Source: Trematomus loennbergii | Taxonomy: Eukaryota > Chordata > Actinopteri > Perciformes > Nototheniidae | NCBI GenBank assembly: GCA_012861695.1 | Contig: JAAOOA010000101.1 | Span: 412,501-476,500 of the forward strand | DNA length: 64,000 bases | Direction: 5' to 3' | Shown here: piece after piece, positions 27,521-63,640 of the stretch | How the letters are laid out: the number at the start of each line of letters is the position of its first letter | Numbering within the stretch: the first letter of the stretch is position 1 | Made by a program: the position numbers and the translations under genes | Notes under the pieces: generated by a model | Database searches by the model: none | What the model saw: only the letters and a program-made list of their open reading frames with translations | What the model was told of the DNA's origin: nothing

Positions 27521-27838
27521 TGAAAGTAGTGTTCTTTTAATTCCCCAAAGTCACATATCATCTACCCAGTACATTAATCCTTCATCCAATATCAATTGTA
27601 AGGCATTATCTGTTTTTGTTTTCAGAAAATGTTCCAACACATTTCTCACCAGATAGATAACACGTTGGGATCCAAATCCTTGCTGATAGTTGCTAACTGA
27701 CAGAAAAATGTATAATTATAATTTAATTTAATAATGTATCATTATAACAGTCGGACAATAAGTGGGACAAAAGTAAAATTTAAGGTTAATTATTTATTTG
27801 GCATTTGATGAAGTCAAGAAACATTCAGTGAACATTTA

Positions 27839-28583
27839 TCAGTAATCGGTGATGCGCCTCATGCTCATGAACCTCTGGCCGCTCATGCCCATGTCTCTGA
27901 AGTTCCTGTACTCTCCGGGCCTCATGTACATCATCTTGCCTCTGAACTGGGGCTGCTCGTACATCAGCCAGTGACCGTCCATCACGTTGCAGGACTGGCA
28001 CTCGTTCATGCGGTAACGGTCCATGATGTTGTCACAGTCCTCCGTCATCTCGTGACTCTGACCACCGAAGTTCTCCTTCTCGTAGATATTCATCCTGTAC
28101 TGTCCTCTGTGCTGCTTTCGAGAGAAGAATTATGAATGAATGATTTAATGTAAAGAGTTAATGGTCACTCATAGTAGAATCGTACGATTTAAGTTTTATA
28201 CCCACCATGGGGATCATACGGCAAGACTTGATGCAGTCCCTCATTCCCATCATGCTCATGCAGTCGGAGTACTCGCCCCTCTTCATGAAGTGCTGGTTTC
28301 CCATGTAGTTGTTGCGGTCGTACACCATGAAGCAGCCGCTCTCCACCCTGCAGGACTGGCACCTGCTCAGGGAGGAGGACATGTCAGAGCAGTCATTCAT
28401 GCACTCATAAGAACGACCCTGGAAGTTCTTCTCCTCGTAGAAGGTGATCTGAAAGAAGGGAATTGTAATGGTTAGAAATATAGCAAGGTACAGATGGTGA
28501 TATTGCAAACAGTAATTTCTGCTTATCACAAAAAAGACTTCTGAAAGTACCTTGCCCCTCATGTTCATGCCGGTGTTGCTCAT
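27839..28583 (-). CDS. crygm: gamma-M crystallin copy 1 (intact, 182 aa)
   Basis: Exons 28583-28551 ([11 protein letters not shown]), 28448-28206 (81 codons) and 28111-27839 (90 codons plus TGA), all phase 0 with GT/AG junctions. Exons 2 and 3 each encode one domain of two Greek-key motifs: [31 protein letters not shown] and then [27 protein letters not shown]. This gene shape is typical of gamma crystallins. Known: fish gamma-M crystallins are soluble structural lens proteins rich in Met, lacking most of the usual tryptophans, packed at very high concentration for a high refractive index. Differs from the other copies by a Cys in MRDCIKS and an ITDY end. AATAAA lies about 41 bases past the stop. 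The MVTHSR-type open frame on the opposite strand is only a shadow. Confidence 0.96.
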
Positions 28584-28640
28584 GTTGGCTGTAGATGTGC
28601 TGTTGCTGGTGAACTGATATCCTACCTGGTTTAACCCTTT

Positions 28641-28707
28641 CCTTTTATACCTGACTAACGTAAAGAATGGGTAGCCCCTCCCCCTCAGGGAACCATCTAA
28701 CTCAGCA
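28641..28707 (-). promoter_or_regulatory. crystallin copy 1 core promoter
   Basis: TATAAAAGG at 28649-28641, 58 bases upstream of the start codon, and TGCTGAGTTA at 28707-28698. The latter contains TGCTGA, the half site bound by large Maf factors in lens crystallin promoters. The pair occurs with identical spacing in all six copies. Confidence 0.75.
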
Positions 28708-28719
28708 GTTTACCATTGA

Positions 28720-30180
28720 AGCCAACAGAATGCAGAGGTTTGGTACATTCTTACAGGGATTGGGTACCTTGTAGAGGAGGACAACTGACTCTATGTCTCT
28801 CAACATTCTCATAAAAAGACAATAGTTTTTTGCCTTTTTCTGCCAAATATGACACATTTTACTTGTTTCGTGAAGTTGGACAATAGGAACACAGAACTTT
28901 AAACAAAGAGAAGAGGAATTATGAGGGTGCTGCTAGGTGGGACTGCGAAACAAAGGAAAGGTCAGTCATATATTTTTATTTTATTTTGGCTTTTCAAATC
29001 AAGATAGTCGATATCAAGCACAATGCTTCTGAGCAAATTGTTTACATTCTTCTTCTAAGTTTTCCCATCACCTCATTCACAATAACATCATGGAGGTTTT
29101 AAAAGACGGCAAGCTATGATTAGTCGGGGGTCTCTTGGCGGAGACACGGCAATCATTTATTACTATATCATTGCCTTTTTTGAAACTGTGACCATTTGAA
29201 CAAAAACAAATATTGTGTACTCTGAATATAAAAGTAGAAGTAGATGATGAAACTGGAAAAAAATACACGAATATACAAGACATCAAACATATTCTGTTTG
29301 TATCAGAGTGAGTTTTTCAAGAACAATTGGCTTTGTAGCAATGGCTATTTGTTCTAGCGATAACTTGGTGTAGAACAAAATAGCTTTCAGTTTAATGTGA
29401 GCTTTTCTGGGGTTTATTGGGGTTTCATAATAATGGACAGTTAAACAATGGCATGGCACCTAACTGTGAAACAAGAGTATAGTTAATGTTGAACTGTAGT
29501 TTTGTGTGTTACATCTGCTCTAAGTTCAATTTTCAACTTAAGTAGGGAAGTCCTGGTCTTCGAGTCTCCTCGATATTAAAATATCAGAGGTTGATGTAAT
29601 GGCCATACATTTCATTTATTCCCAACAAAAAATGTGTTCTTTCAATTAATATTAATGCTATTATTGTATTAATATAGCATGTTGCAAAGTGCTATACGAA
29701 AGAAAATAAGATAGTATGGCAAATGGATATAAATAACTGTAATATCCATATGAGCCAGAGGCAACATTGTGTTGAGGGCGAGTTGAAGGAATCAGGGCTA
29801 ATGTAATGTTACATTAAAAATGCTTCATTATTTGAGTTAGGAACAAAAACACTGAACTATAATATCTGCATTCCCCTGACATTTAACCAGAAGTCAAAAG
29901 TAATAATTAATGTCTAAAATCTCACTAAGTGGCTTGAACAACCAACATAAGATAATAACACTTTCTACCTCGATTGGCTTTGTAAGCTTCATAATGGGCT
30001 GACCACAATGCATCTCTAATCAGATTTTCTTTCAATATGATGTACAGGTGTTCACTCAAGATTTGAAACCCTTAAATACTGAAGCCATACCTTGAGAAAT
30101 AAAGAAGTGAATTGCATTTATTGCACCTGAAATTAGTGTTTTTTGCACTAATATTTTTGTGCTGAAGGGACAACAGTGAA
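28720..30180. other. array spacer, no gene seen
   Basis: AT-rich non-coding spacer present in every unit with small indels. No exon, RNA gene or clear transposon ends recognised. A short cytosine-poor block after 29600 contains AATTAATATTAATGCTATTA, the site where unit 5 received a TTAA transposon. Confidence 0.6.
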
Positions 30181-30190
30181 TTATGTAATA

Positions 30191-30669
30191 GTCAGAATCA
30201 GATTTACATTTACACATACGAGGAATTTGCTTTGGTGTAAATGATACATACAAAGACACAGAAAAAAAGAATACGCAGCAAAACAAAATCAAATACAAAT
30301 AGGACTGTTGTTATAGCTATTTAAAACAACAATTTTAACACTTTTATAACAAATGTACAATATTAACATATGACAAATACTATATGCTGTATTTAAAGTG
30401 GAGAGCTGTGCTGATTTAAAAGAGGTACTGTGGAGAAGAAATGTGCAACATTTAAAAAATAACAAGATGTTGTTCGCATTATGTTATGTGCATTAATGTA
30501 ATGCATAATGTTTTTTCTGGGGTGGATAAAAGTCAGTTTCAGTGGGGGTCCTGGGCCTTGTTGATGAGGCCAGTAGCAGAGGGGAAGAAACTGTTCAGGT
30601 GGGGAGAGGTGTTGGTCCTGATGGAGCGCAGCCTCCTGCCAGAGTGGAGCGGGGTAAACAGTTTGTGTC
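30191..30669. mobile_element. interspersed repeat in array unit
   Basis: It begins GTCAGAATCAGATTTACATT and ends with a block containing GGGCCTTGTTGATGAGGCCA, AGAGGGGAAGAAACTGTTCA and GGAGCGCAGCCTCCTGCCAG. This is a highly recurrent teleost repeat whose class I cannot settle. Counterparts lie at about 38039-38520, 45900-46380, 60172-60650 and 63005-63500. The fuller opening GTCAGAATCAGAATCGG survives in units 4, 5 and 6, so units 1-3 share a small deletion. Confidence 0.6.
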
Positions 30670-30689
30670 CAGTTCAGTCTAGTACTGTT

Positions 30690-31072
30690 AGGGTTGGGGA
30701 AAATAGGACCCAAATGCAGTAAAAGACAAAAGGCATGTAACAAAAAGCGAGTTTAATAAAAAGCCGATGATATGAGATGCCGAGAAAAACAGGAAACAAC
30801 TAAAACCGCAAATCAGGGAGCACGAGGAACAGGAACAAACTTACAACAGCTACAGGCAGGTAACATGGATGAGCGAGCAGGGAGTAAAAGGGAAGACAAG
30901 ACTAAATACACAGAAGGGTAATCACAGGACAAGACACAGCTGGGCAGGGGAGGTAGAAACACAAGGGGGGGGGGGGCAACAGGTGAACACAAGGAGACAA
31001 TTAGACACAGGAGGGCAAACACAGGAAGGAAGACCAGACAAAGGGAGAACATAAATCCAAAACCATGACAAG
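30690..31072. mobile_element. second interspersed repeat in array unit
   Basis: Runs from GGTTGGGGAAAATAGGACCC to GGAGAACATAAATCCAAAAC, with a poly-G tract at about 30965-30976. AACAGGTGAACACAAGGAGA and CACAGGAAGGAAGACCAGA motifs recur in fish repeats. Copies lie in units 2 and 3. Unit 5 keeps only the last third (from 60651) and unit 6 only the first part (to about 63640). Confidence 0.55.
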
Positions 31073-31136
31073 TTTACTGAATACAAATAATACCTTGGTT
31101 TAAAAACGAAATCACATTTTTATTTAATTACCCAGA

Positions 31137-34100
31137 GTTCTATTTCATCTAGAGATGTCCCGATCCGATCACGTGATCGGGGATCGGAGCCGATCACGTG
31201 ATTTTCAAACGATCGGAATCGGGAGAAAAAAATCGGGGATCGGGAATTATTTTTATTTTATTTATTTTTTATAAAATATTTTTATTTTATTTAATGTTAC
31301 AAAACAAAAATGACCATGTTCACGTCTTGAAGTCATCCTGAGGCCTTAGTTTTGGTTTAAAATTACACAACATCATGTATGTGTTGCTTCTTTTGGGCTT
31401 GTTTTCATAGACCTGGTTGCTTATTTCTCTCAAATCTGGCAACAGAGTGGGCAGGGCGCAGTGTCTAATAGTAGCAGTAAGCTAACGAGAGGCTACGTTC
31501 AGCTGGTGCCTCGGGAGTCGGGACAGAGAAAATGTCAGGAGTTTGGAAGTATTATAAAATTGAAAGCGAAGGCAGTATAACAGCCAGATGCAATGTTTGC
31601 AAGGCGGAGGTTCCGCGTGGTGGAAAGAACAGAGCTACGTTCAACACGACCAATCTAATACAAACACCAACAACAACACGACGAGTACACAGCGGCCACT
31701 CAGGTAACGGCACTGAAACAACCAACACTTTCAGAGACTTTTAAAAGGAAAGAGAAACTGCCCCAGAACAGTGAAAAGGCCAAAAAAATAACAGCCAAGA
31801 TAGCTGAATTCATCGCGTTGGATGACCAGCCGTTATCTGTTACCTTTTTTTTCTCTTAATGCATTGCATAAAGATCGGATCGGGAAAAATCGGTATCGGC
31901 AGATTGTCAAAATCAAATGATCGGAATCGGATCGGGAGCAAAAAAAGGTGATCAGGACATCCCTAATTTCATCCTTACTGACCGCCAGAGGAAGTGCTTG
32001 GCACTGGATATTTTCTGTCTCGCGCATGTGCAGGTCAAGTATTTATGTCAACAAAGTCACGTGTGACCTCGCATGACCCCGGAAGGCATAAGTTCCGGTG
32101 TTGTCAACGAGTTCAGTCTTTTTTCATCTTCTCGCTGCACAGGTTACTACTCTATGAGCAGAAGCCAAGCTAGCCTATTAATATTTTGATTATTCATGCT
32201 CATCGCTACCTTTAGCCTTGTGATTGTGTCGGTCAGAGCTGCGGGCTAAACGCGACTCGCCCTCCAAAGGCTGCGACGAGCTGTCCCCCCCCCCCCCAAG
32301 GGAGGGGACCGCGGTGTTCACCGCTCGGACTCTCAGGAGCCCCGGACCGGTAAAGAGCGAATGCTCCTGCACATCAGTCGGTGAGATCGCTGCCTGAAGT
32401 ATGTGCTTGTCCAATCGGACAACACTTCAACAGTGTTTCATATAAACCACCAAGGGGGATCCAATCCTGAATCTGAGGGGACTCAACAAGTTCCTAAAGA
32501 TCTTACCCTTTCATATGCTGAGCACAGCGGACGTTCTTCGTACCGTTGCCAGGGGGGAATGGTTCACGTCCGTCGACTTGAAGACTTATTTCATGTGCCT
32601 ATCACAGGCAGTTTCTTCGATTTGCCTTCAGAGGCCGTCATTTCCAGTTCAGGGTGCTTCCATTCGGACTCTCCCTCTCCCCAAGGGTGTTCACCAGGTG
32701 TGTCGCGGCAGCTCTCTCGCCCCTGCAGTCTCAGGGTATGAAGATTCTGCCATACTTAGACGACTGGCTAATCTGTGCACCATCCCGGTTGCAGTCGACC
32801 CAGGACACGGCTCTCCTTCTCTCTCATGTCGCCCGGCTAGGCCTCAGGTGAACATGGAGAAGAGTTGTCTGAACCCCTCTCAGAGCCTAACCTTCATTGG
32901 GGTGGCTCTGGACTCAGTCACTATGCGGGCCTGTCCATCTGCTCAGCGCCTGGACGACATCCTCCAGCTTCTTCCCCTCTTCAAAGGGGCAGGTCTCTGT
33001 TCTCTGCCTCTTGGGCAAGCTGACAGCTGCCTCAACTGTCGTTCCCTTGGGCTTGTTGTCACTGCGCCCCCTGCAGAGATGGCTGAACGGCCTCCACTTA
33101 GACCCCAAGTGCACAGGCACAGAAAAATCAGGGTGTCACAACAGTGCCTCTCCACTCTATCCCCATGGAGGAGAGGTCGTATATGTCAAGGGGCGTGGCC
33201 ATGGGCTCCGTCCCTTTCCGCAGAGAGACCGTTACGACGGATGCCAGCCTCTCGGGATGGGGTGCGGTGTGGCAAAACAGGACAGCCGGGGCAGTGGTCT
33301 TGGACTGCACAGAACATCAATGTGCTAGAGCTACGAGCTGTGCACCTAGCACTCAGGCACTTCCTGCCATACCTGAGGGGGAGGCATGTGCTTGTCCGCT
33401 CGGACAACACTACAACGGTTTCATATAAACCACCAAGGGGGCACCAAATCTGCACGCTTGCTAGAGGTGTCCCAGACTCTCCTGACCTGGGCAGCCCCTT
33501 GCCTGGCCAGCCTACGGTCAATGTATCTGCCCGGAGAAGGAGAACCAAGTCGCAGACTTCCTCTCCCGTCACAAGCCTCCACCAGGGGAGTGGCGGCTTC
33601 ATCCAGAGGTGGTGGCCAACATCTGGGGTCTCTTCGGCAGGGCAGAGGTAGATCTCTTTGCCTCGAGGATTCGACCCACTGCCCCTATGGTTCTCCTTGA
33701 TGGAGAAGACCAGCCCTTTGGGTCAGGACGCCCTGGCTCATTCATGGCCAGGGTGTCTTCTCTATGCCTATCCACCCCTTCCTCTGATCCTACCAACACT
33801 CCTCAGAGTGCTTCATCAGGGCCACAGGCTTCTTCTGGTGGCCCCCTTCTGGCCAGCCAGGACTTGGTTCTCCCTGCTGCACAGACTCTGTTGCGGGACA
33901 CCTTGGCGTCTCCCCAACAGGAAGGACCTCTTGTCTCAGCTGGAGGGTCGGATATGGCACCCCGACCCCGCCGCCTCCAGCTGTGGGTCTGGCCACTGGA
34001 GGGCCCGACCCACTGCTGAGCGACTGCGTAGAGCCTGTCAGGAGGACTATTCTCAATGCTAGGGCACCATCTACTCGTAAGCAGTACGAAACAGGTGGAA

Positions 34101-35385
34101 ACTGTTTCTGACTGGTGCCAAGGGCGAAATGAGGACCCAGTACATTGCTCGGTGCCTACTATCCTTGAGTTCCTGCAGTCCCTCCTGGACGACGGCCGGT
34201 GTCCCGCTACCGTCAGGTGTATGTGGCTGCTATATCTCAGCTCAACACGCAAGGGTTGACAACAGCACAGTGGGGAGCCATAGGCTGGTATCCCTCTTTT
34301 AAGGGGAGCACTGAGGCTCGCCCCCCGAACATCCCAAGGGCCCCTACATGGGATCTGCCCTTGGTGCTGGATGCCCTATGCTCGCCTCCCTTTGAACCCT
34401 TGTTACAGGCAGAACTGAGGTGGCTCTCAGTCAAGACTGCTTTCCTTCTTGCCATCACCTCAGCAAAGCGTGTAAGCGAGCTTCAGGCCTTGTCCGTGAA
34501 CAGCTCGTGTCTGAGGTGGAACTCAGATGGCTCAGGTGTCACCTTATGGCCGAACACAGCGTTCCTCCCTAAGGTGCTGGCACGCTCTCATTTTAATCGG
34601 CCTATCCAGCTGGCACGGTTTGACCCCCCATCAGGAGAGGGGGAAGAGAGGTCAGACTCCTATGCCCGGTGCGGGCCCTTAGAGCTTATGTCCAGACTAC
34701 CGCAGGCATGCGTCAGTCTGAAGCTCTTTTGTTACGGTGGTCCTAGAAGGGGCTGTGCGCTCTCAAAACAGCGCTTGTCCCACTGGATCGTGGACGTCAT
34801 TGCCCAGGCATACAAGGAATGACCGTCCCTTGCCACCCAGAGTAAAGTGCCACTCTACCAGGAGTGTCTCCACGTCATGGGCGACCTTGAGAGGTGTGCC
34901 CCTGGAGGACATATGTGCCGGCCACATGGGCATCTCCGAGCACATTCGCCAGATACACGGGTGAATGTTGCCGCCCCTCCCGTGGGTGTGGTCCTCCTGC
35001 AGAGTCCCTAGGCCATCCTATAGGTAGTGCAGACTTCCTCGTGACTCTGTTGATATAGGTCATCCAGTGCTAAGCACGCCTCTGGCGGTCAGTAAGGATG
35101 AAATAGAACGATAGTTACGTATGTAACTACGGTTCTATGAATCTGGATGACCGCCAGAGTTCTTGGTCACTCGGAATCTTGTGTTCTGCGAGAAGATTCC
35201 ATAGGACTCAACTCGTTGACAACACCGGAACTTATGCCTTCCGGGGTCATGCAAGGTCACACGTGACTTTGTTGACATAAATATCGACCTGCGCATGCGC
35301 GAGACAGAAGATATCCAGTGCTAAGCACTTCCTCTGGCGGTCATCCAGGATTCATAGAACCGTAGTTACATACGTAACTTTCGTT
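31137..35385 (+). mobile_element. DIRS-like tyrosine-recombinase retrotransposon, copy 1 (defective)
   Basis: GTT at 31137-31139 and 35383-35385 bound the element. The termini are inverted repeats: left GACCGCCAGAGGAAGTGCTT (31980 on), right its complement at 35323-35342. Domains, broken by frameshifts: reverse transcriptase about 32456-32890 (LRGLNKFLK, YLDDWLI), RNase H about 33225-33590 (TDASLSGWG, LELRAVHL, SDNTT, VADFLSR) and a tyrosine recombinase about 34180-34965 (KRVSELQ, HSTRSVS). A block at 35063-35160 is complementary to both element tips joined, as in DIRS1. Known: DIRS elements replicate through a circular DNA inserted by the recombinase without target duplication. A stray RNase H piece sits before the reverse transcriptase at 32400-32455. 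Gag and most of the 5' coding region are missing. Confidence 0.9.
31150..31965 (+). mobile_element. truncated hAT transposon inside DIRS copy 1
   Basis: 816 bp with inverted ends TAGAGATGTCCCGATCCGATC and AGGTGATCAGGACATCCCTA, flanked by ATTTCATC at 31142-31149 and 31966-31973 (8-bp target duplication). The frame from 31532 encodes a BED-type zinc-finger start (VWKYYKIESEG, CNVCKAEVPRGGK, TFNTTNLI) typical of hAT transposases. It is followed in another frame by KKITAKIAEFIALDDQPLS. The catalytic core is deleted. Confidence 0.9.
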
Positions 35386-35674
35386 TTATCACATATCATC
35401 AACCCAGTGTATTAATCCGTCATCCAATATCAATTGTAAGGCATTCTCTGTTTTTTTTTTTGTCAATCTTGCAACAAATTTCTCCTCAGATATAAAACAT
35501 GTGAGGATCAACATTTTCATTGCTAATAGTTGCCTACTGTCAAATAAATCTTATATAATTAATTTCAATTAATAATGTGTGATTATAACAGTTGGACAAT
35601 AAGCATGACAAGTCACATTCAAGGTTAATTTTTTATTTGGCATTTTATAAATTCAGGAAACATTCAGTGAACAT

Positions 35675-36428
35675 TTAGCAGGAATCGGTGATACGCCTCA
35701 TGCTCATGAACCTCTGGCCGCTCATGCCCATGTCCCTGAAGTTCCTGTACTCTCCGGGCCTCATGTACATCATCTTGCCTCTGAACTGGGGCTGCTCGTA
35801 CATCAGCCAGTGACCGTCCATCACGTTGCAGGACTGGCACTCGTTCATGCGGTAACGGTCCATGATGTTGTCACAGTCCTCCATCATCTCGTGACTCTGA
35901 CCACCGAAGTTCTCCTTCTCGTAGATATTCATCCTGTACTGTCCTCTGTGCTGCTTTCGAGAGAAGAATTATGAATTAATGATTTAATGTAAAGCGTTGT
36001 GGGGTGGTCACCCATAGTAGAATCGTACGATTACAGTTTTATACCCACCATGGGGATCATACGGCAAGACTTGATGTTATCCCTCATTCCCATCATGCTC
36101 ATGCAGTCGGAGTACTCGCCCCTCCTCATGTAGTACTGGTTTCCCATGTAGTTGTTGCGGTCGTACACCATGAAGCAGCCGCTCTCCACCCTGCAGGACT
36201 GGCACCTGCTCAGGTAGGAGGACATGTCAGAGCAGTCATTCATGCACTCATAAGAACGACCCTGGAAGTTCTTCTCCTCGTAGAAGGTCATCTGAAAGAA
36301 GGGAATTTTAATGGTTAGAAATAGATTAGCAAGGTACAGATGGTGATATTGCAAACGGTTATTTCTGCTTATCACAAAAAGACTTCTGAAAGTACCTTGC
36401 CCCTCATGTTCATGCCGGTGTTGCTCAT
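35675..36428 (-). CDS. crygm: gamma-M crystallin copy 2 (intact, 183 aa)
   Basis: Exons 36428-36396, 36291-36049 and 35950-35675 (ends ITDSC, TAA). Exon 2 begins [11 protein letters not shown], so Ile is replaced by Met relative to copy 1; it has SSYLSRC and QYYMRRGEY where copy 1 has SSSLSRC and QHFMKRGEY. Exon 3 matches copy 1 except EMMEDC and the one-residue-longer C-terminus. All splice sites are intact. The exon 2 and exon 3 products are identical to those of copies 3 and 4. AATAAA lies about 38 bases past the stop. Confidence 0.96.
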
Positions 36429-36484
36429 GTTGGCTGTAGATGTGCTGTTGCTGGTGAACTGATATCCTACCTGGTTAACCTTTT

Positions 36485-36551
36485 CCTTTTATACCTGTTC
36501 AACGTAAAGAATGGGTAGCCCCTCCCCCTCAGGGAACCATCTAACTCAGCA
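36485..36551 (-). promoter_or_regulatory. crystallin copy 2 core promoter
   Basis: TATAAAAGG at 36493-36485 and Maf-type TGCTGAGTTA at 36551-36542. Confidence 0.75.
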
Positions 36552-38985
36552 GTTTACCATTGAAGCCAACAGAATGCAGAGGTTTGGTACATTCTTACAG
36601 GGATTGGGTACCTTGTAGAGGAGGACAACTGACTCTATGTCTCTCAACATTCTCATAAAGACAATCTTTTTTTGCCTTTTTCTGCCAAATATGACACATT
36701 TTACTTGTTTCGTGAAGTTGGACAATAGGAATACAGTACTTTAAACAAAGAGAAGAGGAATTATGAGGGTGCTGCTAGGTGGGACTGCGAAACAAATGAA
36801 AGGTCAGTCATATATATATATATTTTTTATTCTGGCTTTTCAAATCAAAATAGTCGATATCAAGAACAATGATTCTTCGAAAATTGTTTACATTCTTCTT
36901 CTCCTAAGTTTTCCCCATCACCTCATTCACAATAACATCATGGAGGTTTAAAAGACGGCAAGCTATGATTAGTCGGGGGTCTCTTGGCGGAGACACGGCA
37001 ATCATTTATTACTACTGTATCATTGCCTTTTTTGAAACTGTGACCATTTGAACAAAAACAAATATTGTGTACTCTGAATATAAAAGTCGAAGTAGATGAT
37101 GAAACTGGAAAAAAATACACGAATATACAAGACATCAAACATATTCTGTTTGTATCAGAGTGAGTTTTTCAAGAACAATTGGCCTTTGTAGCAATGGCTA
37201 TTGTTCTAGCGATAACTTGGTGTAGAACAAAAGCTTTCAGTTTAATGTGAGCTTTTCTGGGGTTTATTGGGGTTTCATAATAATGGACAGTTAAAACAAT
37301 GGCATGGCACCTAACTGTGAAACAAGAGTATAGTTAATGTTGAACTGTAGTTTTTGTGTTTCATCTGCTCTAAGTTCAATTTTCAACTTAATAGGAAGTC
37401 TGGTATTCGAGTCTCCTCGATATTAAAATATCACAGGTTGATGTAATGGCCATACATTTCATTTATTCCCAACAAAAAATGTGTTCTTTCAATTAATATT
37501 AATGCTATTATTGTATTAATATAGCAATGTTGCAAAGTGCTATACGAAAGAAAATAAGATAGTATGGCAAATGGATATAAATAACTGTAATACCCATATG
37601 AGCCAGAGGCAACATTGTGTTGAGGGCGAGTTGAAGGAATCAGGGCTAATGTAATGTTACATTAAAAATGCTTCATTATTTGAGTTAGGAACAAAAACAC
37701 TGAACTATAATATCTGCATTCCCCTGACATTTAACCAGAAGTCAAAAGTAATAATTAATGTCAAATTCACTAAGTGGCTTGAACAACCAACATAAGATAA
37801 TAACACTTTCTACCTCGATTGGCTTTGTAAGCTTCATAATGGGCTGACCACAAATGCATCTCTAATCAGATTTTCTTTCAATATGATGTACAGGTGGTCA
37901 CTCAAGATTTGAAACCCTTAAATACTGAAGCCATACCTTGAGAAATAAAGAAGTGAATTGCATTTATTGCACCTGAAATTAGTGTTTTTTGCACTAATAT
38001 GTTTTTGTGCTGAAGGGACAACAGTGAATTATGTAATAGTCAGAATCAGATTTACATTTACACATACGAGGAATTTGCTTTGGTGTAAATGTACATACAA
38101 AGACACAGAAAAAAAGAATACGCAGCAAAACAAAATCAAATACAAATAGGACTGTTGTTATAGCTATTTAAAACAACAATTTTAACACTTTTATAACAAA
38201 TGTACAATATTAACATATGACAAATACTATATGCTGTATTTAAAGTGGAGAGCTGTGCTGATTTAAAAGAGGTACTGTGGAGAAGAAATGTGCAACATTT
38301 AAAAAATAACAAGATGTTGTTCGCATTATGTTATGTGCATTAATGTAATGCATAATGTTTTTTCTGGGGTGGATAAAAGTCAGTTTCAGTGGGGGTCCTG
38401 GGCCTTGTTGATGAGGCCAGTAGCAGAGGGGAAGAAACTGTTCAGGTGGGGAGAGGTGTTGGTCCTGATGGAGCGCAGCCTCCTGCCAGAGTGGAGCGGG
38501 GTAAACAGTTTGTGTCCAGTTCAGTCTAGTACTGTTAGGGTTGGGGAAAATAGGACCCAAATGCAGTAAAAGACAAAAGGCATGTAACAAAAAGCGAGCT
38601 TTAATAAAAAGCCGATGATATGAGATGCCGAGAAAAACAGGAAACAACTAAAACAGCAAATCAGGGAGCACGAGGAACAGGAACAAACTTACAACAGCTA
38701 CAGGCAGGTAACATGGATGAGCGAGCAGGGAGTAAAAGGGAAGACAAGACTAAATACACAGAAGGGTAATCACAGGACAAGACACAGCTGGGCAGGGGAG
38801 GTAGAAACACAAGGGGGGGGGGGGGCAACAGGTGAACACAAGGAGACAATTAGACACAGGAGGGCAAACACAGGAAGGAAGACCAGACAAAGGGAGAACA
38901 TAAATCCAAAACCATGACAAGTTTACTGAATACAAATAATACCTTGGTTTAAAAACGAAATCACATTTTTATTTAATTACCCAGA

Positions 38986-51281: not shown

Positions 51282-51348
51282 CCTTTTATACCTGTTCAAC
51301 GTAAAGAATGGGTAGCCCCTCCCCCTCAGGGAACCATCTAACTCAGCA
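51282..51348 (-). promoter_or_regulatory. crystallin copy 4 core promoter
   Basis: TATAAAAGG at 51290-51282 and Maf-type TGCTGAGTTA at 51348-51339. Confidence 0.75.
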
Positions 51349-53770: not shown

Positions 53771-53980
53771 ATCTCGTGTTCTCGCGAGAAGATTCCATAG
53801 GACTCAACTCGTTGACAACACCGGAACTTATGCTTTCCGGGGTCATGCAAGGTCACACGTGACTTTGTTGACATAAATACTCGACCTGCGCATGCGCGAG
53901 ACAGAAGATATCCAGTGCTAAGCATTCCTCTGGCGGTCATCCAGGATTCATAGAACCATAGTTACATACTAACTTTCGTT
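53771..53980 (+). mobile_element. DIRS right-end remnant
   Basis: 210 bases matching the right terminal repeat of the complete copies (CTCGCGAGAAGATTCCATAG through CTTTCGTT, ending in GTT at 53978-53980). The left part of the element and the hAT insertion are gone. Confidence 0.9.
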
Positions 53981-54158
53981 TTATCACATATCATCAACCC
54001 AGTGTATTAATCCGTCATCCAATATCAATTGTAAGGCATTCTCTGTTTGTTTTTTTTGTCAATCTTGCAACAAATTTCTCCTCAGATATAAAACATGTTA
54101 GGATCAACATTTTCATTGCTAATAGTTGCCTACTGTCAAATAAATCTTATATAATTAA

Positions 54159-57103
54159 CAGGGTTCGTACGGGTGCTGGAAATCCTTGAAAATGCTTGAA
54201 ATTGTACGAGGTGTTTTCAAGGTTTGAAAAGTGCTTGAATTTTGGGAATGGTGCTTGAATTTGGGATAAAGTGCTTGAAATTGTAAAATGCTTTACTTCG
54301 CTTTTTAGATTAAAAGAAAATAAAGAAGTCGGAGGCGCGTAATTGCTTCGCTTTTACATAAAACAGCTCCGCTCCGGCCTTCCCGCGCTATGCGCGTGAC
54401 CTGCAAGTGTTTTTGTTACGTGTGTGACCTGGGCATTCTGATGAGAGTGATAGATGACAGTATGCCAGGAGGTTGCAGTTTCAACGAGCGTTGGCTAGCA
54501 GAAGACAAATACAAGCCATGGCTAAGACGAGGGTCAAGCCCACGAGTAGCCTCCTGCAAAGTTTGCAAAAAACAACGATGGGAGAGTCTGCGCTGACGAG
54601 CCACATGAAAGGTACGCCGTAGTAGAGCATTTTAGATTAGGCTAACGTTGCATGTTACGTTTGTTTAAGCTAACGTTAGCAAGCTGAATAGCGAACTCGA
54701 GGAGGGATAATAATAATTGCAGGGGACAATAATTTCAGAGGAGCATACTTATGTTATGTGCGTTACAGTCGCCATCCTGTGGTGTTCAGAGGATGAAGCA
54801 CTCACTGTTGTAATTCAACCCAGTCTCACGGCATTTCGTGTTATAGTCACGAAATATAATCTATTGATTCGACACAGAGCGATTTTAAAAGCAATGTATT
54901 TCTACTGGTAGTATGTTTTCGTGCCTAAACCAAATGTGACTTGCTCTATCGAAATCAGTCACATTGACCCGAAGACACATTTTCGTTTGGATTACTGGTC
55001 TGGGGGAAGCTCGCAAGTGTGTGTGTGTTTTGTATTTTTGCGTTTGTGTGTATTGTGTTTGTGTACCGGGGAAACACTCACAAGAAACACCGGCTGTTGT
55101 TATGCCTGCTGTGATGTTAAATTACTCCGTTCTCCGTTGTAATTATGCCGTTACAAGCTTCAAAGTTGTATTTATCATCTGAATTTGCCGAAACAAGTTT
55201 AATATTCTGAAAGCCAATACTTTGTTTATTTGAAAACAAACTGTCCCGGACCCTGTCGTGTTATCTATGATTACTACTACGCCTTTACTTCATAATTTCA
55301 GCCGGAGGGAGGGGGAGCGACGCTGCGGAAGAGCAGGGTGCGAATTGAGAGGTGCCTCTTCTTCCCTTTACAAGCTTCAAAAAGTTTTATCATGAGATTT
55401 TGGCAATAACAGTTTCATGTTCTGAAAGCCAAGACTTTGTTTATTTAAAATCAAACAAAACACCCGAACCCTGAAAAACTAGTTTTTTTACACAAATCCA
55501 CGTTTATTTTTTAAATGAGCCGTTGCGACTTTTGACTGATTTCAATAGAGCGGGTCACAATAATAACAAATAGAAGGAACAAAATAAATACAGATTTCAG
55601 TATTCTGAGGCTCTGAGCCCCATTTCTTTTCCTCACAGACGGCAAAAAAAGCCCGACATTATACGATTTAAAATAAACAATAATCATGGCTTGATATTGA
55701 GTAAGAACATGTTTTTTGAACCCCACAGCTTCCGGTCTTCCAAGACCCGACCAGACAAAAAGACGCGGGCACGAAACATACTACTTGGTTGCGTAATTAG
55801 ACGTAGCTTGTTAGTATGTTGTTATAAATTATAAACTGAGGATTTGACCGCGTCACTATGGTTGATACTTTTAGAAACAGACTTTAATATAAAATCTTGA
55901 AGTATTATACCACTAAAACTACATTCTGCTTTAATCCCATGTAATTGTAGAATGAACACAGTTTTCCTTTGAAGATGTATAAGTCAGGTGTCTTGAGTAG
56001 TCAAAATGACCTACAAATCATTGTACACATTTGTAAATATTATTTTGCCATTGTGAGTCTATTTTTATGCAGCTCTGCGTGATTTTGTGGCTACAATTCA
56101 GGCTAATACGCTACCAGAGGTGGAATAAGTACTCAGATATTGTACTTGAGTAAAAGTAGAAGTACTCAGATCTTGTAGTGAAAGTAGATGTACTCAGATG
56201 TTGTACTTGAGTAGAAGTAGAAGTACTCATATATTGTACTTGAGTAGAAGTACTCAGATCTTGTACTTGAGTAAAAGTAGAAGTACTCAGATCTTGTAGT
56301 GAAAGTAGATGTACTCAGATCTTGTACTTGAGTAAAAGTAGAAGTACCAGAGTGTAGGAATACTCTGTTACAGTAAAAGTCCTGCATTCAACATGTTCCT
56401 CAAGTAAAAGTATAAAAGTATTATCATCAAAATATAGTTAAAGTAGCGACAGTAAAAGTAGTTATTGTGCAGATTGGTCCATTTCAGAATAATAAATATG
56501 ATATGTTTTATAATGATTGATCATTCAAGTGTTCTCAAAGCTGGTAAAGGTGCAGCTAGTTTGAATGACTTTGTATACTGCAGGATAGCTTGTGGATTAA
56601 AGTCTGATTTAACACTTGATTATATTTCACATCATTCATCCACATCTGTAAAGTAACTAAAGGTATTAAATACATGTAGTGGAGTAAAAGTACACCATTC
56701 ACCTCTGACTTATGTTTACTGCCAACCTAAAAGTACCTAAAAAATAGTAATCAATAATGTATTGAAAAGTTATTTGGCTGATTGTTTTATATTGGCTCAG
56801 CCGGGTTATATGGGATGCCCAGTCTACGTACAGATGGGTCACTCATTTTGAAATATTAAACTTAGTTTTCTTTTCTTTTAATGTTCTCATGTAGAATGCT
56901 ATTATGAAACACACATTTGGTTGTTTATAGCATAAAGAACATCTGATTTAATGTGAGGTTGGGAAATAATCATTTGAGTATAAGTATGTGTATATAAAAT
57001 GTAATTTACAACAGCTGTAAGAAGCTTGAAAAGCTTGAAAATGCACCTTGAAAATGCTTGAAAAGTGCTTGAATTTGACTTTGGAAAAGGTGTAAGAACC
57101 CTG
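54159..57103. mobile_element. 2.9-kb DNA transposon with CAGGGTTC ends
   Basis: Inverted ends CAGGGTTCGTACGGGTGC and GTGTAAGAACCCTG, followed inward on both sides by GCTTGAAAATGCTTGAA-type repeats. Flanked by AATTAA at 54153-54158 and 57104-57109; other units have a single AATTAA there, giving a direct 6-bp target duplication. A frame near 54465-54610 encodes GGCSFNERWLAEDKYKPWLR then C-x2-C and, after a frameshift, GESALTSHMKG, a transposon-type zinc finger. The 6-bp duplication does not fit hAT (8 bp) and may fit IS3EU-type elements, an inference. A second repeat is nested at 56115-56707. Confidence 0.75.
56115..56707. mobile_element. nested repeat with CAGAGGTG / CACCTCTG ends
   Basis: Starts CAGAGGTGGAATAAGTACTC and ends CACCATTCACCTCTG. 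The first 250 bases are an expanded minisatellite of AAGTAGAAGTACTCAGATCT-type units (about 56140-56350). Resembles a very common teleost non-autonomous element. A clear target duplication was not found. Confidence 0.65.
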
Positions 57104-57221
57104 AATTAATTTCAATTAATAATGTGTGATTATAACAGTTGGACAATAAGCATGACAAGTCACATTCAAGGTTAAGTTTTTATTTGGCATTTTATAAATT
57201 CAGGAAACATTCAGTGAACAT

Positions 57222-57973
57222 TTAGCAGGAATCAGTGATACGCCTCATGCTCATGAACCTCTGGCCGCTCATGCCCATGTCCTGAAGTTCCTGTACTCTC
57301 CGGGCCTCATGTACATCATCTTGCCTCTGAACTGGGGCTGCTCGTACATCAGCCAGTGACCGTCCATCACGTTGCAGGACTGGCACTCGTTCATGCGGTA
57401 ACGGTCCATGATGTTGTCACAGTCCTCCATCATCTCGTGACTCTGACCACCGAAGTTCTCCTTCTCGTAGATATTCATCCTGTACTGGCCTCTGTGCTGC
57501 TTTCGAGAGAAGAATTATGAATTAATGATTTAATGTAAAGCGTTGTGGGGTGGTCACCCATAGTAGAATCGTACGATTACAGTTTTATACCACCATGGGG
57601 ATCATACGGCAAGACTTGATGTTATCCCTCATTCCCATCATGCTCATGCAGTCGGAGTACTCGCCCCTCTTCATGAAGTACTGGTTTCCCATGTAGTTGT
57701 TGCGGTCGTACACCATGAAGCAGCCGCTCTCCACCCTGCAGGACTGGCACCTGCTCAGGTAGGAGGACATGTCAGGGCAGTCATTCATGCACTCATAAGA
57801 ACGACCCTGGAAGTTCTTCTCCTCGTAGAAGGTCATCTGAAAGAAGGGAATTGTAATGGTTAGAAATAGATTAGCAAGGTACAGATGGTGATATTGCAAA
57901 CAGTTATTTCTGCTTATCACAAAAAGACTTCTGAAAGTACCTTGCCCCTCATGTTCATGCCGGTGTTGCTCAT
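57222..57973 (-). pseudogene. crygm: gamma-M crystallin copy 5 (frameshift in exon 3)
   Basis: Exons 57973-57941, 57836-57594 and 57496-57222. One C is missing at about 57281 (CATGTCCTG instead of CATGTCCCTG). The frame changes after EYRNFR and stops three codons later, losing about 21 residues of the fourth Greek-key motif. The intron 2 donor has also lost one G (ATG|GTGGTA instead of ATG|GTGGGT), removing the G at donor position +5. Exon 2 has [10 protein letters not shown] (Ser to Pro) and QYFMKRGEY. The promoter is intact. Either a young pseudogene or a copy damaged only in the assembly; two independent one-base losses within 320 bases leave both possible. Confidence 0.8.
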
Positions 57974-58029
57974 GTTGGCTGTAGATGTGCTGTTGCTGGT
58001 GAACTGATATCCTACCTGGTTAACCCTTT

Positions 58030-58096
58030 CCTTTTATACCTGTTCAACGTAAAGAATGGGTAGCCCCTCCCCCTCAGGGAACCATCTAACTCAGCA
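58030..58096 (-). promoter_or_regulatory. crystallin copy 5 core promoter
   Basis: TATAAAAGG at 58038-58030 and Maf-type TGCTGAGTTA at 58096-58087, unchanged despite the damaged coding region. Confidence 0.7.
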
Positions 58097-58620
58097 GTTT
58101 ACCATTGAAGCCAACAGAATGCAGAGGTTTGGTACATTCTTACAGGGATTGGGTACCTTGTAGAGGAGGACAACTGACTCTATGTCTCTCAACATTCTCA
58201 TAAAGACAATCGTTTTTTGCCTTTTTCTGCCAAATATGACACATTTTACTTGTTTCGTGAAGTTGGACAATAGGAATACAGTACTTTAAACAAAGAGAAG
58301 AGGAATTATGAGGGTGCTGCTAGGTGGGACTGCGGAACAAAGGAAAGGTCAGTCATATATTTTTATTTTATTTTGGCTTTTCAAATCAAGATAGTCGATA
58401 TCAAGCACAATGCTTCTGAGCAAATTGTTTACATTCTTCTTCTCCTAAGTTTTCCCCATCACCTCATTCGCAATAACATCATAGAGGTTTTAAAAGACGG
58501 CAAGCTATGATTAGTCGGTGGTCTCTTGGCGCAGACACGGCAATCATTTATTACTATATCATTGCATTTGTTAAATAGCAACCATTTTAACAAAAACAAA
58601 TATTGCGTACTCTGAATGTA

Positions 58621-58792
58621 AAATAATAATAATAATAATTCCATATATTTATTATAGCGCTTTTCCAGAGCTCAAAGCGCTTTACAAATACACATTACAC
58701 ACATTACACATGTAACGGTCATGTACTATGGACAATACCCACAGGAGCAAATTCAGGTGAAGTGTCTTGCCCAAGGATACAACGGCCTGAAA
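58621..58792. mobile_element. short repeat with ATAATAATA head
   Basis: An (ATA)n run, then TTATTATAGCGCTTTTCCAG, GCTCAAAGCGCTTTACAAAT and GGTGAAGTGTCTTGCCCAAG, a recurrent fish short repeat. It replaces several hundred bases of unit spacer, so its arrival went with a deletion. A looser relative may lie at 18108-18295. Confidence 0.55.
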
Positions 58793-58924
58793 ATTCAATT
58801 TTCAACTTAAGTAGGGAAGTCCTGGTGTTCGAGTCTCCTCGATATTAAAATATCAGAGGTGGATGTAATGGCCATACATTTAATTTATTCCCAACTAAAA
58901 ATGTGTTCTTTCAATTCATATTAA

Positions 58925-59304
58925 AGGTAGGGTAGGTAAGTTTGAGAAACCGGCTCGAGATACACTTTTTGTTATATTCCATGGAATGCTCTTAACATCC
59001 CGATAGCAATGAATATCTGAAGTGCTTTGACAAAAAATCCATAAAAAAATGTCATCTGTGGAAGCCGTAGTACTGTAAAAAGCACGACCAATCATTTTAG
59101 CCGGCCCGGCTAAAATAACTGGATGGCCTACCTGCCTGTCAGCCTTCCATCTGTGCACAAACTTATCTCGTGCCCTCATTGGTCATGTGCGCGTTTGTGT
59201 GTGTTGGAGGAGGGGCTCTATAAGGAAGTGGCAGATTTTCTCGGTTGTGTATTTTCAAATTCTAGCGATCTCGAGCCGGTTTCTCAAACTTACCCACCCT
59301 ATCT
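58925..59304. mobile_element. TTAA MITE in unit 5
   Basis: TTAA at 58921-58924 and 59305-59308; other units have one TTAA in AATATTAATGCTATT at this place, so the duplication is proven by comparison. Ends AGGTAGGGTAGGTAAGTTTG and CAAACTTACCCACCCTATCT are near-perfect inverted repeats. Closely similar to 19576-19954. Confidence 0.88.
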
Positions 59305-59698
59305 TTAATGCTATTATTGTATTAATATAGCAATATTGCAAAGTGCTATACGAAAGAAAATAGGATAGTATGGCAAATGGATATAAATAACTGTAATACC
59401 CATGAGCCGGAGGCAACATTGTGCTGAGGGCGAGTTGAAGGTATCAGGGCTAATGTAATGTTACATTAAAAATGTTTCATTATTTAAGTTGGGAACAAAA
59501 ACACTGAACTATAATATCTGCATTCCCCTGACATTTAACCAGAAGTCAAGAGTAATAATGAATGTCTAAAATCTTACTAAGTGGCTTGAACAACCAACAT
59601 AAGCTAACACTTTCTACCTCGATTGGCTTTGTAAGCTTCATAATGGGCTGACCTCAATTGCATCTCTAATCAGATTTTCTTTCAATATGACGTACAGG

Positions 59699-60068
59699 TA
59701 GGGGTGTAATGGTATCCGTATTCGTCTCGAACCGTCACGGTTTGGACGTCACGGTTTGGACGTCACGGTTTGGCACATGCAGTCGCTCGTGTGTGTGCGT
59801 GCGTGCGTGCGTGTGTGTGTGTTAGCCTACTGTTTGTGGTTTGTTTTTAACTGTGTAATACAGTTAATTATTCAAAATGTTAGAGTTCCTTATTTTTCTA
59901 CTGAAACTTGCACTACTGTTAAAAAATAAATAACAACAAACCTGGAATTATGCATTTGGGACTTTTTTTTGCTTTTTCTTGTTGTACCGAACCCGTACCG
60001 AACCGTGACCCCCAAACCGAGGTACGTACCGGACCGTGAATTCTGTGAACCGTTACACCGCTACAGTA
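59699..60068. mobile_element. element with GGGGTGTAATGG / CCGTTACACC ends
   Basis: CGTACAGG at 59691-59698 and 60069-60076 looks like an 8-bp target duplication. Other units have a single GTACAGG here. Ends TAGGGGTGTAATGG and CCGTTACACCGCTA are inverted repeats; a few extra bases (CAGTA) follow on the right. Contains repeated GGACGTCACGGTTTGG and a TG/CG-rich run at about 59790-59822. Probably a hAT-type non-autonomous element. Confidence 0.65.
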
Positions 60069-61143
60069 CGTACAGGTGTTCACTCAATATTTGAAACCCT
60101 TAAATACTGAAGCCATACCTTGAGAAATAAAGAAGTGAACTGTAATTGAATTATGTTGAATTATGTAATAGTCAGAATCAGAATCGGTTTTATTACAAAG
60201 TAGGTTTACACATACGAGGAATTTGCTTTGGTGTAAATGGTGCATACAAAGACACAGAAAAAAGAATACATAGCAAAATCAAATACAAATAGGACTGTTA
60301 TTACAGCTATTTAAAAAAACAATTTTAACACTTTTATAACAAATGTACAACATTAACATATGACAAATACTATATGCTGTATTTAAAGTGGAGAGCTGTG
60401 CTGATTTAAAGGTTGTGGAGAAGAAATGTGCAACATTTAAAAAATAACAAGATGTTGTTCGCATTATGTTATGTGCATTAATGTAATGCATAATGTTTTT
60501 TCTGCGGTGGATAAAAGTCAGTTTCAGTGGGGGTCCTGGGCCTTGTTGATGAGGCCAGTAGCAGAGGGGAAGAAACTGTTCAGGTGGAGAGAGGTTTTGG
60601 TCCTGATGGAGCGCAGCCTCCTGCCAGAGTGGAGCGGGGTGAACAGTTTGCAACAGGTGAACACAATGAGACAATCGGACACAGGAGGGAAAACACAGGA
60701 AGGAAGACCAGACAAAGGGAGTACACAATGTCAAAATAAAACCGTAAAATTGCAACATAAATCCAAAACCATGACAAGTTTACTAACTACATATAATACC
60801 TTGGTTTAAAAACATAATAATCTCTTTTTTATTTTATTACCCAAAGTGTTATCACATATCATCAACCCAGTGTATTAATCTGTCATCCAATATCAATTGT
60901 AAGGCATTCTCTGTTTTGTTTTTTTGTCAATCTTGCAACACATTTCTCACCAGATATAAAACATGTTAGGATCAACATTTTCATTGCTAATAGTTGCCTA
61001 CTGTCAAATAAATCTTATATAATTAATTTCAATTAATAATGTGTGATTTTAACAGTTGGACAATAAGCATGACAAAAGTCACATTCAAGGTTAATTTTTT
61101 ATTTGGCATTTTATAAATTCAGGAAACATTCAGTGAACATTTA

Positions 61144-61890
61144 TCAGAATCGGTGATGCCTCATGCTCATGAACCTCTGGCCGCTCATGCCCATGTCTCT
61201 GAAGTTCCTGTACTCTCCGGGCCTCATGTACATCATCTTGCCTCTGAACTGGGGCTGCTCGTACATCAGCCAGTGACCGTCCATCACGTTGCAGGACTGG
61301 CACTCGTTCATGCGGTAACGGTCCATGACGTTGTCACAGTCCTCCATCATCTCGTGACTCTGACCACCGAAGTTCTCCTTCTCATAGATCTTCATCCTGT
61401 ACTGGCCTCTGTGCTGCTTTGGGAGAAGAATTATGAATGAATGATTTAATGTAAAGCGTTGTGGGGTGGTCACCCATAGTAGAATCGTACGATTACAGTT
61501 TTATACCCACCATGGGGATCATACGGCAAGACTTGATGTTATCCCTCATTCCCATCATGCTCATGCAGTCGGAGTACTCGCCCCTCTTCATGAAGTACTG
61601 GTTTCCCATGTAGTTGTTGCGGTCGTACACCATGAAGCAGCCGCTCTCCACCCTGCAGGACTGGCACCTGCTCAGGGAGGAGGACATGTCAGAGCAGTCA
61701 TTCATGCACTCATAAGAACGACCCTGGAAGTTCTTCTCCTCGTAGAAGGTGATCTGAAAGAAGGGAATTTGAATGGTTAGAAATAGATTAGCAAGGTACA
61801 GATGGTGATATTGCAAACAGTTATTTCTGCTTATCACAAAAAGACTTCTGAAAGTACCTTGCCCCTCATGTTCATGCCGGTGTTGCTCAT
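61144..61890 (-). CDS. crygm: gamma-M crystallin copy 6 (altered C-terminus, 181 aa)
   Basis: Exons 61890-61858, 61753-61511 and 61413-61144, in phase with GT/AG sites. Exon 2 begins [11 protein letters not shown] as in copy 1 and has QYFMKRGEY; exon 3 begins [16 protein letters not shown] two-base loss near 61158 (GATGCC instead of GATGCGCC) changes the end from MRRITDY or MRRITDSC to MRHHRF, so the protein stops one residue early relative to copy 1. Both crystallin domains are otherwise complete, so it could be functional. Copies 1 and 6, the outer pair, share features (ITFYEE, SSSLSRC) that the inner copies lack. Confidence 0.9.
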
Positions 61891-61947
61891 GTTGGCTGTA
61901 GATGTGCTGTTGCTGGTGAACTGATATCCTACCTGGTTTAACCCTTT

Positions 61948-62014
61948 CCTTTTATACCTGTTCAACGTAAAGAATGGGTAGCCCCTCCCCCTCAGGGAAC
62001 CATCTAACTCAGCA
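61948..62014 (-). promoter_or_regulatory. crystallin copy 6 core promoter
   Basis: TATAAAAGG at 61956-61948 and Maf-type TGCTGAGTTA at 62014-62005. Confidence 0.75.
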
Positions 62015-63640
62015 GTTTACCATTGAAGCAAACAGAATGCAGAGGTTTGGTACATTCTTACAGGGATTGGGTACCTTGTAGAGGAGGACAACTATGTCTC
62101 TCAACATTCTCATAAAGACAATCGTTTTTTGCCTTTTTCTGCCAAATATGACACATTTGTACTTGTTTCGTGAAGTTGGACAATAGGAACACAGACATTT
62201 GAACAAAGAGAAAGGAATTATGAGGGTGCTGCTAGGTGGGACTGCGAAACTTGGCGGAGACACGGCAATCATTTATTACTATATCATTGCCTTTTTTTAA
62301 ACAGTGACCATTTTAACAAAACAAATATTGCGTACTCTGAATGTAGAAGTAGATGATGAAACTGGAAAAAATACACGAATATACAAGTCATAAAACATAT
62401 TCTGTTTGTATCAGAGTGAGTTTTTCAAGAACAATTGGCCTTTGTAGCAATGGCTATTTGTTCTAGCGATAACTTGGTGTAGAACAAAATGGCTTTCGGT
62501 TTAATGTCGGGTTTATTGGTTTCATAATAATGGACAGTTGAAACAATGGCATGGCACCTAACTGTGAAACAAGAGTATAGTAAATGTTGAACTGTAGTTT
62601 TGTGTGTTACATCTGCTCTAAGTTCAATTTTCAACTTAAATAGGTAAGTCCTGGTGTTCGAGTCTCCTCGATATTAAAAACATCAGAGGTTGATGTAATG
62701 GCCATACATTTCATTTATTCCCAACAAAAAATGTGTTCTTTCAATTAATATTAATGCTATTATTGTATTAATATAGCAATGTTGCAAAGTGCTATACCAA
62801 CATAAGATAATAACACTTTCTACCTCAATTGGCTTTGTAAGCTTCATAATGGGCTGACCACAATTGCATCTCTTATCAGAGTTTCTTTCAATATGATGTA
62901 CAGCTGTTCACTCGAGATTTGAAACCCTTAAATACTGAAGCCATACCTTGAGAAATAAAGAAGTGAATTGTTTTTGTGCTGAAGGGACAACAGTGAATTA
63001 TGTAATAGTCAGAATCAGAATCGGTTTTATTACAAATTAGGTTTACACATACGAGGAATTTGCTTTGGTATATGTGGTACATAAAAGACACAGAAAAATG
63101 AATACGTAGCAAAACAAAATCAAATACAAATATGACTGTTATTATAGTTATTTAAAAAAACTATTTTAACACTTTTATAACAATTGTACAATATTAACAT
63201 ATGACAAATACTATATGCTGTATTTAAAGTGGAGAGCTGTGCTGATTTTAAAAGAGTTACTGTGGAGAAGAAATGTGCAACATTTTAAAAATAACAAGAT
63301 GTTGTTCGCATTATGTTATGTGCATTAATGTAATGCATAATGTTTTTTCTTGGATGGATAAAAGTCAGTTTCAGTGGGGGTCCTGGGCCTTGTTGATGAG
63401 GCCAGTAACAGAGGGGAAGAAACTGTTCAGGTGGGGAGAGGTTTTGGTCCTGATGGAGCGCAGCCTCCTGCCAGAGTGGAGCAAGGTAAACAGTTTGTGT
63501 CCAGTTCAGTCTAGTACTGTTAGGGTTGGGGAAAATAGGACCCAAATGCAGGAAAAGACAAAGGCATGTAATAAAAAGCTAAGGATAAAGAAAAACATGA
63601 AACAACTAAAACAGCAAATCAGGGAGCAACAGGAACAAAC

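Follow-up and report, generated by a model that had tools for sequence, protein, structure and literature searches.

One end of a large tandem array of gamma-M crystallin genes, probably homogenised recently and repeatedly, in Trematomus loennbergii

A stretch of 64,000 nucleotides from the genome of the notothenioid fish Trematomus loennbergii, referred to here as the window, contains six gamma-M crystallin genes arranged head to tail on the minus strand between positions 27836 and 61890. The window corresponds to positions 412501-476500 of contig JAAOOA010000101.1 (C101), and the searched genome comprises 1.208 Gb in 3566 contigs. We consider it highly probable (roughly 0.85) that these genes, which are ordinary gamma-M crystallin genes, belong to one end of a large tandem array that has been homogenised both recently and repeatedly. 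Coordinates of individual features are collected in Table 1; there, as in the text, positions without a contig name refer to the window.

A first-pass annotation of the window had described six three-exon crystallin genes lying head to tail, and our measurements agree with it. The start-to-start spacing of the six copies is 7843, 7855, 6942, 6748 and 3917 bp, and every copy has exons of 33 nt (32 in copy 3), 243 nt and 273-276 nt, in that order on the minus strand. Gamma-type crystallin genes have a short first exon, followed by one exon for each double-Greek-key domain, and this structure is found in all six. In the copy 2 protein of 183 residues, exon 1 encodes 11 residues, exon 2 the 81-residue N-terminal domain, and exon 3 the linker and the C-terminal domain. 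A Pfam scan limited to copy 1 detected PF00030 (Crystall) in each of its two domain exons, with 92.5 and 106.4 bits (cut-off 25), which is the two-domain composition of the beta/gamma-crystallins. The closest sequence in the PDB to copy 2 is zebrafish gamma-M7 (2m3c; E 9.2e-71; residues 10-181 matched). Methionine makes up 14.8-15.8% and cysteine 4.9-6.5% of the six proteins measured, and among the 120 homologues listed, many are fish proteins bearing the name gamma-crystallin M1, M2 or M3. The genes are thus assigned to the methionine-rich gamma-M class of fishes by matches and composition. From family membership, we infer that the copies encode structural proteins of the lens. An Rfam scan of the window gave no matches.

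The window edge cuts through the array, and the count of six reflects this edge. A scan of C101:246001-526500 revealed 15 minus-strand gene loci (array B; C101:440.3-525.3 kb, 85 kb), of which the window holds the first six, so the earlier description of a six-unit array does not hold. We number these loci as copies 1-15, or B01-B15. They form a head-to-tail series of homologous units, as expected of a concertedly evolving tandem array. All 15 genes have GT-AG at each of their four splice sites. They also carry a TATAAA-like box 64-66 bp upstream of the ATG and a polyadenylation-signal-like hexamer 36-37 bp past the stop codon, and these signals fit a working gene. Array B is faced, at a distance of about 100 kb, by array A, which has 17 plus-strand loci (A01-A17) at C101:257-340 kb. 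Additional crystallin-like genes lie past both ends of array A, at 250-254 kb and at 343-361 kb, and the counts from our genome-wide crystallin search are lower bounds. On a further contig (C476:301-315 kb), exon hits repeat those of C101 at about 250-264 kb with a near-constant offset; this region is probably a second haplotype left in the assembly.

Each unit had been said to begin with the same sequence motif, and this is so in all six, including unit 5 (position 53984). The motif, the 12-mer TCACATATCATC, has six exact occurrences in the window, all on the plus strand. With up to one mismatch allowed, nine matches are found on the two strands, against 0.46 expected, and none of 100 shuffles reaches nine. 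Along array B, there are 14 exact copies, and the unit of copy 8 has a version that lacks 1 bp. Because the genes are read from the minus strand, the motif is on their 3' side, about 0.3 kb downstream (3.2 kb at copy 5), and is not a promoter. Gene spacing suggests that copy 5 lacks the motif, but we rejected this possibility because an insertion of 2.95 kb separates the motif at 53984 from the gene at 57222. The DNA immediately before the motif is the end of a retroelement-bearing segment in units 2-5 and plain spacer in later units, and the alignment of copies 1 and 2 also starts at the motif. The motif is the point at which copies start to align, not a regulatory start.

Evidence of homogenisation comes from the uneven distribution of identity among the copies. 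Copies 2, 3 and 4, which had been described as encoding identical domains, indeed have no substitutions in exons 2 and 3. With gaps left uncounted, the substitution-free tracts around these genes include the introns and measure 1,585 bp for copies 2 and 3 and 1,279 and 1,276 bp for copy 4 against copies 2 and 3, respectively. Units 1 and 2 share a tract of 1,711 bp. Each of these four tracts is longer than the longest in all 2,000 permutations of its pair, and the longest tract between units 1 and 3 (560 bp) was reached in 1 of 2,000. Within pairs of units, gene and spacer divergence differ, and do so in both directions. For example, the gene is the more similar part in B02-B03 (0.07% versus 1.01% for the spacer), B07-B08 (0 versus 0.92%) and B07-B10 (0 versus 0.62%), whereas the spacer is the more similar part in B06-B07 (1.95% in the gene versus 0.35%) and B01-B02 (5.95% versus 2.58%). 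The comparisons involving B07 lie partly or wholly outside the window. We therefore rejected the idea that identity tracts are always centred on genes. Copy 7 also has no exonic substitutions relative to copies 8 and 10. The earlier suggestion that unequal crossing-over or gene conversion acted recently, and did so in the middle of the array, is accordingly supported as to exchange, but not as to place, because the spacer of units 1 and 2 and the exons of copies 7, 8 and 10 are also affected. The suggestion that the outer copies 1 and 6 share older residues was right for a shared isoleucine, phenylalanine and lysine, all common in array A; it does not extend to the serine shared in SSSLSR, where array A mostly has tyrosine or asparagine.

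This distribution also bears on whether selection for dosage amplified the genes and kept them identical, with more gamma-M crystallin aiding a dense or cold-stable lens. The ratio of nonsynonymous to synonymous substitution rates is below 1 in all 13 hand-chosen pairs (point estimates, 0.28-0.75), and excerpts of two papers propose that gamma-M number aids dense aquatic lenses and cold tolerance in toothfish (PMC2358921, PMC11118217). However, tracts of identity do not fall consistently on genes, given the greater likeness of the spacer in units 1-2 and 6-7, and we regard this explanation as doubtful.

Conflicting histories within a single unit are clearest in copy 11, outside the window. It has no substitutions relative to copy 12 in the upstream 400 bp and exon 2, and none in exon 3 relative to copies 7, 8 and 10. 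In trees, copy 11 groups with copy 12 in the 5' half and with copies 7-10 in the 3' half. The approximately unbiased (AU) test rejects B11+B12 in the 3' half (p 1.75e-7), and in the 5' half rejects two groupings found in the 3' half, namely B07-B11 (p 1.3e-4) and B06+B12 (p 1.6e-4). If entire units in the central part of the array had simply been duplicated of late, with no gene conversion, this would explain why copies 2-4 are adjacent and have in common the retroelement segment or its remnant. It is an improbable account nonetheless, because divergence differs between parts of one unit pair and copy 11 is a mosaic. The patchwork fits recurrent unequal exchange together with gene conversion.

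In the alignment of the six units, all but unit 2 have private structural marks. The 3' flank of unit 1 is diverged, with 45-49 differences in about 245 sites when set against the other 14 copies, two excepted. In unit 3, about 0.92 kb of the large spacer segment is missing, and a 191-bp gap occurs in unit 6 only. Unit 4 has an insertion of its own and a remnant of the spacer segment. The insertion in unit 5 has short inverted ends, as judged from the empty sites in units 4 and 6, and is a DNA transposon, which we assume to be hAT-like. These marks speak for distinct units and for an entry of the retroelement that preceded the separation of units 1-4. Both a reverse transcriptase and a tyrosine recombinase are present in the spacer segment of unit 1, the unit in which they were identified. 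These are the features that we take to define DIRS elements, and we presume this retroelement to be of that type.

The assembly itself provides some reason to ask whether haplotypes or wrongly joined reads were set in tandem and now pass for some of the six units. A second contig, C286:1-20752, is colinear with C101:505741-526500 over 20.7 kb at 99.5% identity (35 mismatches; 57 gaps, including 45 single-base ones), and genes 12-15 recur on it; most simply, it would be the other haplotype of this region. Such an artefact is nevertheless very unlikely: colinear second copies (C286 and C476), frequent single-base deletions and the unmarked unit 2 speak for it, but five units bear marks of their own (the 3' flank, the retroelement gaps, the 682-bp insert with the 213-bp remnant, the 2.95-kb insertion and the 191-bp gap), and four of the 15 genes are repeated on a second contig with order and spacing kept.

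For recurrent homogenisation, the following course of events can be proposed. A base unit consisting of the gene, promoter-side DNA, a 3' flank with the motif, and spacer would have been multiplied through misaligned homologous exchange. A DIRS-like retroelement may then have entered the spacer beside a motif and been carried along into units 1-4, and private insertions and deletions would later have marked single units. Gene conversion or double exchange presumably overwrote short tracts, such as the gene in copies 2-4 and in copies 7, 8 and 10, the spacer in units 1-2, half of copy 11, and a part of array A that holds a 2.9-kb B-like block. The arrangement of the units, their structural marks, the patchwork of identity and the conflict between trees are seen in the sequence itself, whereas the recombination mechanism and the order and direction of events are proposed.

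The B-like block surrounds A12 (C101:299787-302681). It is 93.5% identical to the first B unit (75 mismatches in 2,984 columns) and 88.5% identical to its best match within array A (89 mismatches in 1,074 columns), and its upstream DNA is of the B type. Because the block is closer to the first B unit than to array A, a B-type unit has probably passed into array A, although the direction is our inference. Two upstream types exist. One is carried by 13 of the B genes and by A12. The second is found in B13 (C101:511890-512503) and B15 (524712-525324), which differ little from each other and are nearer to A11 close to the ATG; B14, although located between these two, is of the common B type. Over the 150 columns immediately upstream of the ATG, B13 and A11 differ at 9 of 148 sites, and B13 and B14 at 21 of 149. 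A broader reading, which is possible but rather unlikely, would have sequence pass between the two facing arrays, of 17 and 15 loci at a distance of about 100 kb, as well as within each of them, with the minus-strand array and its derived upstream type representing a lineage-specific amplification parallel to other reported tandem expansions in Antarctic fishes.

Several observations weigh against homogenisation as we propose it. The retroelement part of units 1-3 (about 32.5-35.2 kb and its equivalents) is more diverged than the nearly identical DNA adjoining it, with up to 34 of 395 sites differing in one bin between units 1 and 2. This difference may reflect ectopic conversion, or mis-polishing caused by copies elsewhere in the genome. 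Both the number of copies and the tracts without substitutions were read from a single assembly, which shows signs of single-base errors (between units 2 and 3, for example, there are 48 substitutions and as many as 62 gap events, of which 47 measure 1 bp) and probably includes haplotigs. The permutation test presumes that substitutions accumulate evenly along the unit. The clades submitted to the AU test were picked after the distance tables had been seen, and their support is moderate (B11+B12, 89/83; B07-B11, 91/84; B06+B12, 78/79). The conflicts involving B01+B14 and B13+B15 were not significant in this test (p 0.13 each). Finally, A11, which neighbours A12 and is 96% identical to another array-A gene, also matches a B unit at 92.7% (76 mismatches in 1,294 columns), so the case for exchange between arrays rests on the mismatch rate and the upstream type.

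The single-base errors also affect how the genes themselves are read. As assembled, the frame is open in 10 of the 15 B genes, among them B06, whose end is altered, and B10 and B12, which have three extra bases. The frame is not open in B03, B05, B08, B09 and B11, each of which has at least one single-base exonic deletion; B08 also has a 2-bp gap where exon 3 begins. We considered whether these five are decayed pseudogenes and rejected this explanation on the following counts. When the exons of 36 sequences (15 of array B, four of C286 and 17 of array A) were aligned and indels counted relative to copy 2, there were 33 single-base deletions and one single-base insertion. This lone insertion is doubtful, in that it lies in A01, whose exon 1 aligned poorly. 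Eleven comparisons of close copies, picked mainly for their gaps, contain 30 single-base deletions and no insertions, with 14 columns in longer gaps excluded. Runs of at least two identical bases contain 21 of these 30 deletions and hold 195 of 552 bases. No pair among A07, A09 and A10 has an exonic substitution, yet A09 and A10 together have 13 single-base deletions; B09 differs from B07 by five substitutions beside six deletions. A09 and A10 (C101:290423-294838) and B09 (C101:492054-492600) stand out with six to seven single-base exonic deletions each. The pattern points to consensus errors, although it is not proof of them, and a frameshift in one of the near-identical copies in this assembly is no ground for calling a pseudogene unless reads bear it out.

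An upper bound can be set on the age of the longest tract of copy 4. For two Antarctic fishes, an excerpt of PMC7307600 reports a divergence D of 0.011, a time t of 6.7 million years, and a rate of 3.28e-9. These values of D and t correspond to 8.2e-10 changes per site per year; the printed rate is four times higher and may be per generation. At 8.2e-10, a tract of 1,279 bp without any substitution would be at most about 1.4 million years old (upper 95% bound), or 0.36 million years if 3.28e-9 applies per year. Both bounds presume a notothenioid host, the rate of coding genes, and a correct assembly.

Table 1. Positions of genes, repeat units and other features in the window
Feature	Position	Strand	Details
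Gamma-M crystallin copy 1	27836..28583	-	exon 1 28551-28583, exon 2 28206-28448, exon 3 27836-28111
Copy 1 signals	28643-28649; 27793-27798	-	TATA-like; AATAAA
Gamma-M crystallin copy 2	35675..36428	-	exon 1 36396-36428, exon 2 36049-36291, exon 3 35675-35950; reference model, 183 aa
Gamma-M crystallin copy 3	43530..44282	-	exon 1 44251-44282 (32 nt, 1-bp deletion), exon 2 43904-44146, exon 3 43530-43805
Gamma-M crystallin copy 4	50472..51225	-	exon 1 51193-51225, exon 2 50846-51088, exon 3 50472-50747
Gamma-M crystallin copy 5	57222..57973	-	exon 1 57941-57973, exon 2 57594-57836, exon 3 57222-57496 (275 nt, 1-bp deletion)
Gamma-M crystallin copy 6	61141..61890	-	exon 1 61858-61890, exon 2 61511-61753, exon 3 61141-61413 (273 nt, altered last codons)
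Unit 1	27551..35388		motif to next motif
Unit 2	35389..43243		motif to next motif
Unit 3	43244..50184		two gaps (411 and 506 columns) in retroelement part relative to units 1-2
Unit 4	50185..53983		682-bp insertion absent from other five; keeps only last 213 bp of large spacer segment (53771-53983)
Unit 5	53984..60851		motif to next motif
Unit 6	60852..64000		truncated at window edge; motif recurs at C101:479624 (window position 67124)
Unit 5 insertion, about 2.95 kb	54159..57103		ends CAGGGTTC...GAACCCTG; 6-bp target duplication AATTAA
Unit 1 spacer segment absent from unit 4	30425..35175	+	counterpart in units 2 and 3; units 5 and 6 have its first 0.24 kb
zf-BED remnant in this segment	31481-31744
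Reverse transcriptase in this segment	32582-32851		RVT_1, E 1.2e-10
Tyrosine recombinase in this segment	34169-34822		homologues in Zoarces and Merluccius named Tyr recombinase
Substitution-free tract of copy 4	50250..51528		versus copy 2 (35453-36731), 1,279 bp; versus copy 3 (43309-44584), 1,276 bp
Unit 1 spacer tract	30052..32518		1 substitution versus unit 2 in about 2.47 kb

Elsewhere in the window, cytochrome P450 exons were found on the minus strand at 823-1062 and 2955-3194 (Pfam p450, E 1.7e-5 and E 2.6e-4, the second under the curated cut-off), which we take to be CYP27A-like. A serine- and aspartate-rich open frame, followed by Met-Pro-Ser repeats, lies on the minus strand at 12442-12885. 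A Pfam search with this frame gave no match, and it presumably resembles ELL-associated factor.

The expansion of gamma-M crystallins in fish is already known, as is the piecewise exchange of DNA among copies as a mode of evolution for such gene families, and the array is an ordinary but clean example. In excerpts of PMC2358921 and PMC11118217, the expansion is described, a role in dense lenses is proposed, and gamma-M number is linked to cold tolerance in toothfish. Among the matches listed from the literature on fish crystallins, notothenioid genomes and gene conversion, we found no description of this array, and a term search for "crystallin" gave no occurrence in the main text of the papers on the blackfin icefish genome and on 24 notothenioid genomes (PMC7307600, PMC10256766). 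The locus provides a clear case of a lens protein array that grows and is overwritten in patches, with insertions that serve as natural time marks. The link between gamma-M number and a dense, cold-stable lens, as proposed in PMC2358921, could be tested here by copy number and expression.

The best protein matches to the arrays are gamma-M crystallins of other notothenioids, namely those of Champsocephalus gunnari (P0005), Gymnodraco acuticeps (P0007) and Notothenia coriiceps (P0014). The 10 array B proteins that were compared are 89-92% identical to the first of these, and A15 is 96% identical to the second. No array B protein has a match above 92.3% among 120 compared, although the database was clustered at 90% and closer ones may be hidden. 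The zebrafish gamma-M family, which includes the closest PDB sequence, likewise has two Crystall domains per protein, and most of its genes are also clustered according to an excerpt of PMC2358921. The locus described here differs in its near-identical copies and its two facing arrays, with the zebrafish arrangement taken from the literature. The mammalian CRYGA-F genes are also gamma-crystallin genes clustered by duplication, and gene conversion is named as possible there in PMC3554465; that cluster has fewer copies and, according to the same paper, lacks orthologues in non-mammalian vertebrates. Among notothenioids, the antifreeze glycoprotein and haemoglobin arrays are likewise tandem, and in both transposable elements have multiplied along with the genes (excerpt of PMC10256766). 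Those arrays encode unrelated proteins, and the haemoglobin expansion is tied, in the same excerpt, to a repeat before each gene pair, whereas no such junction repeat is shown by the crystallin array.

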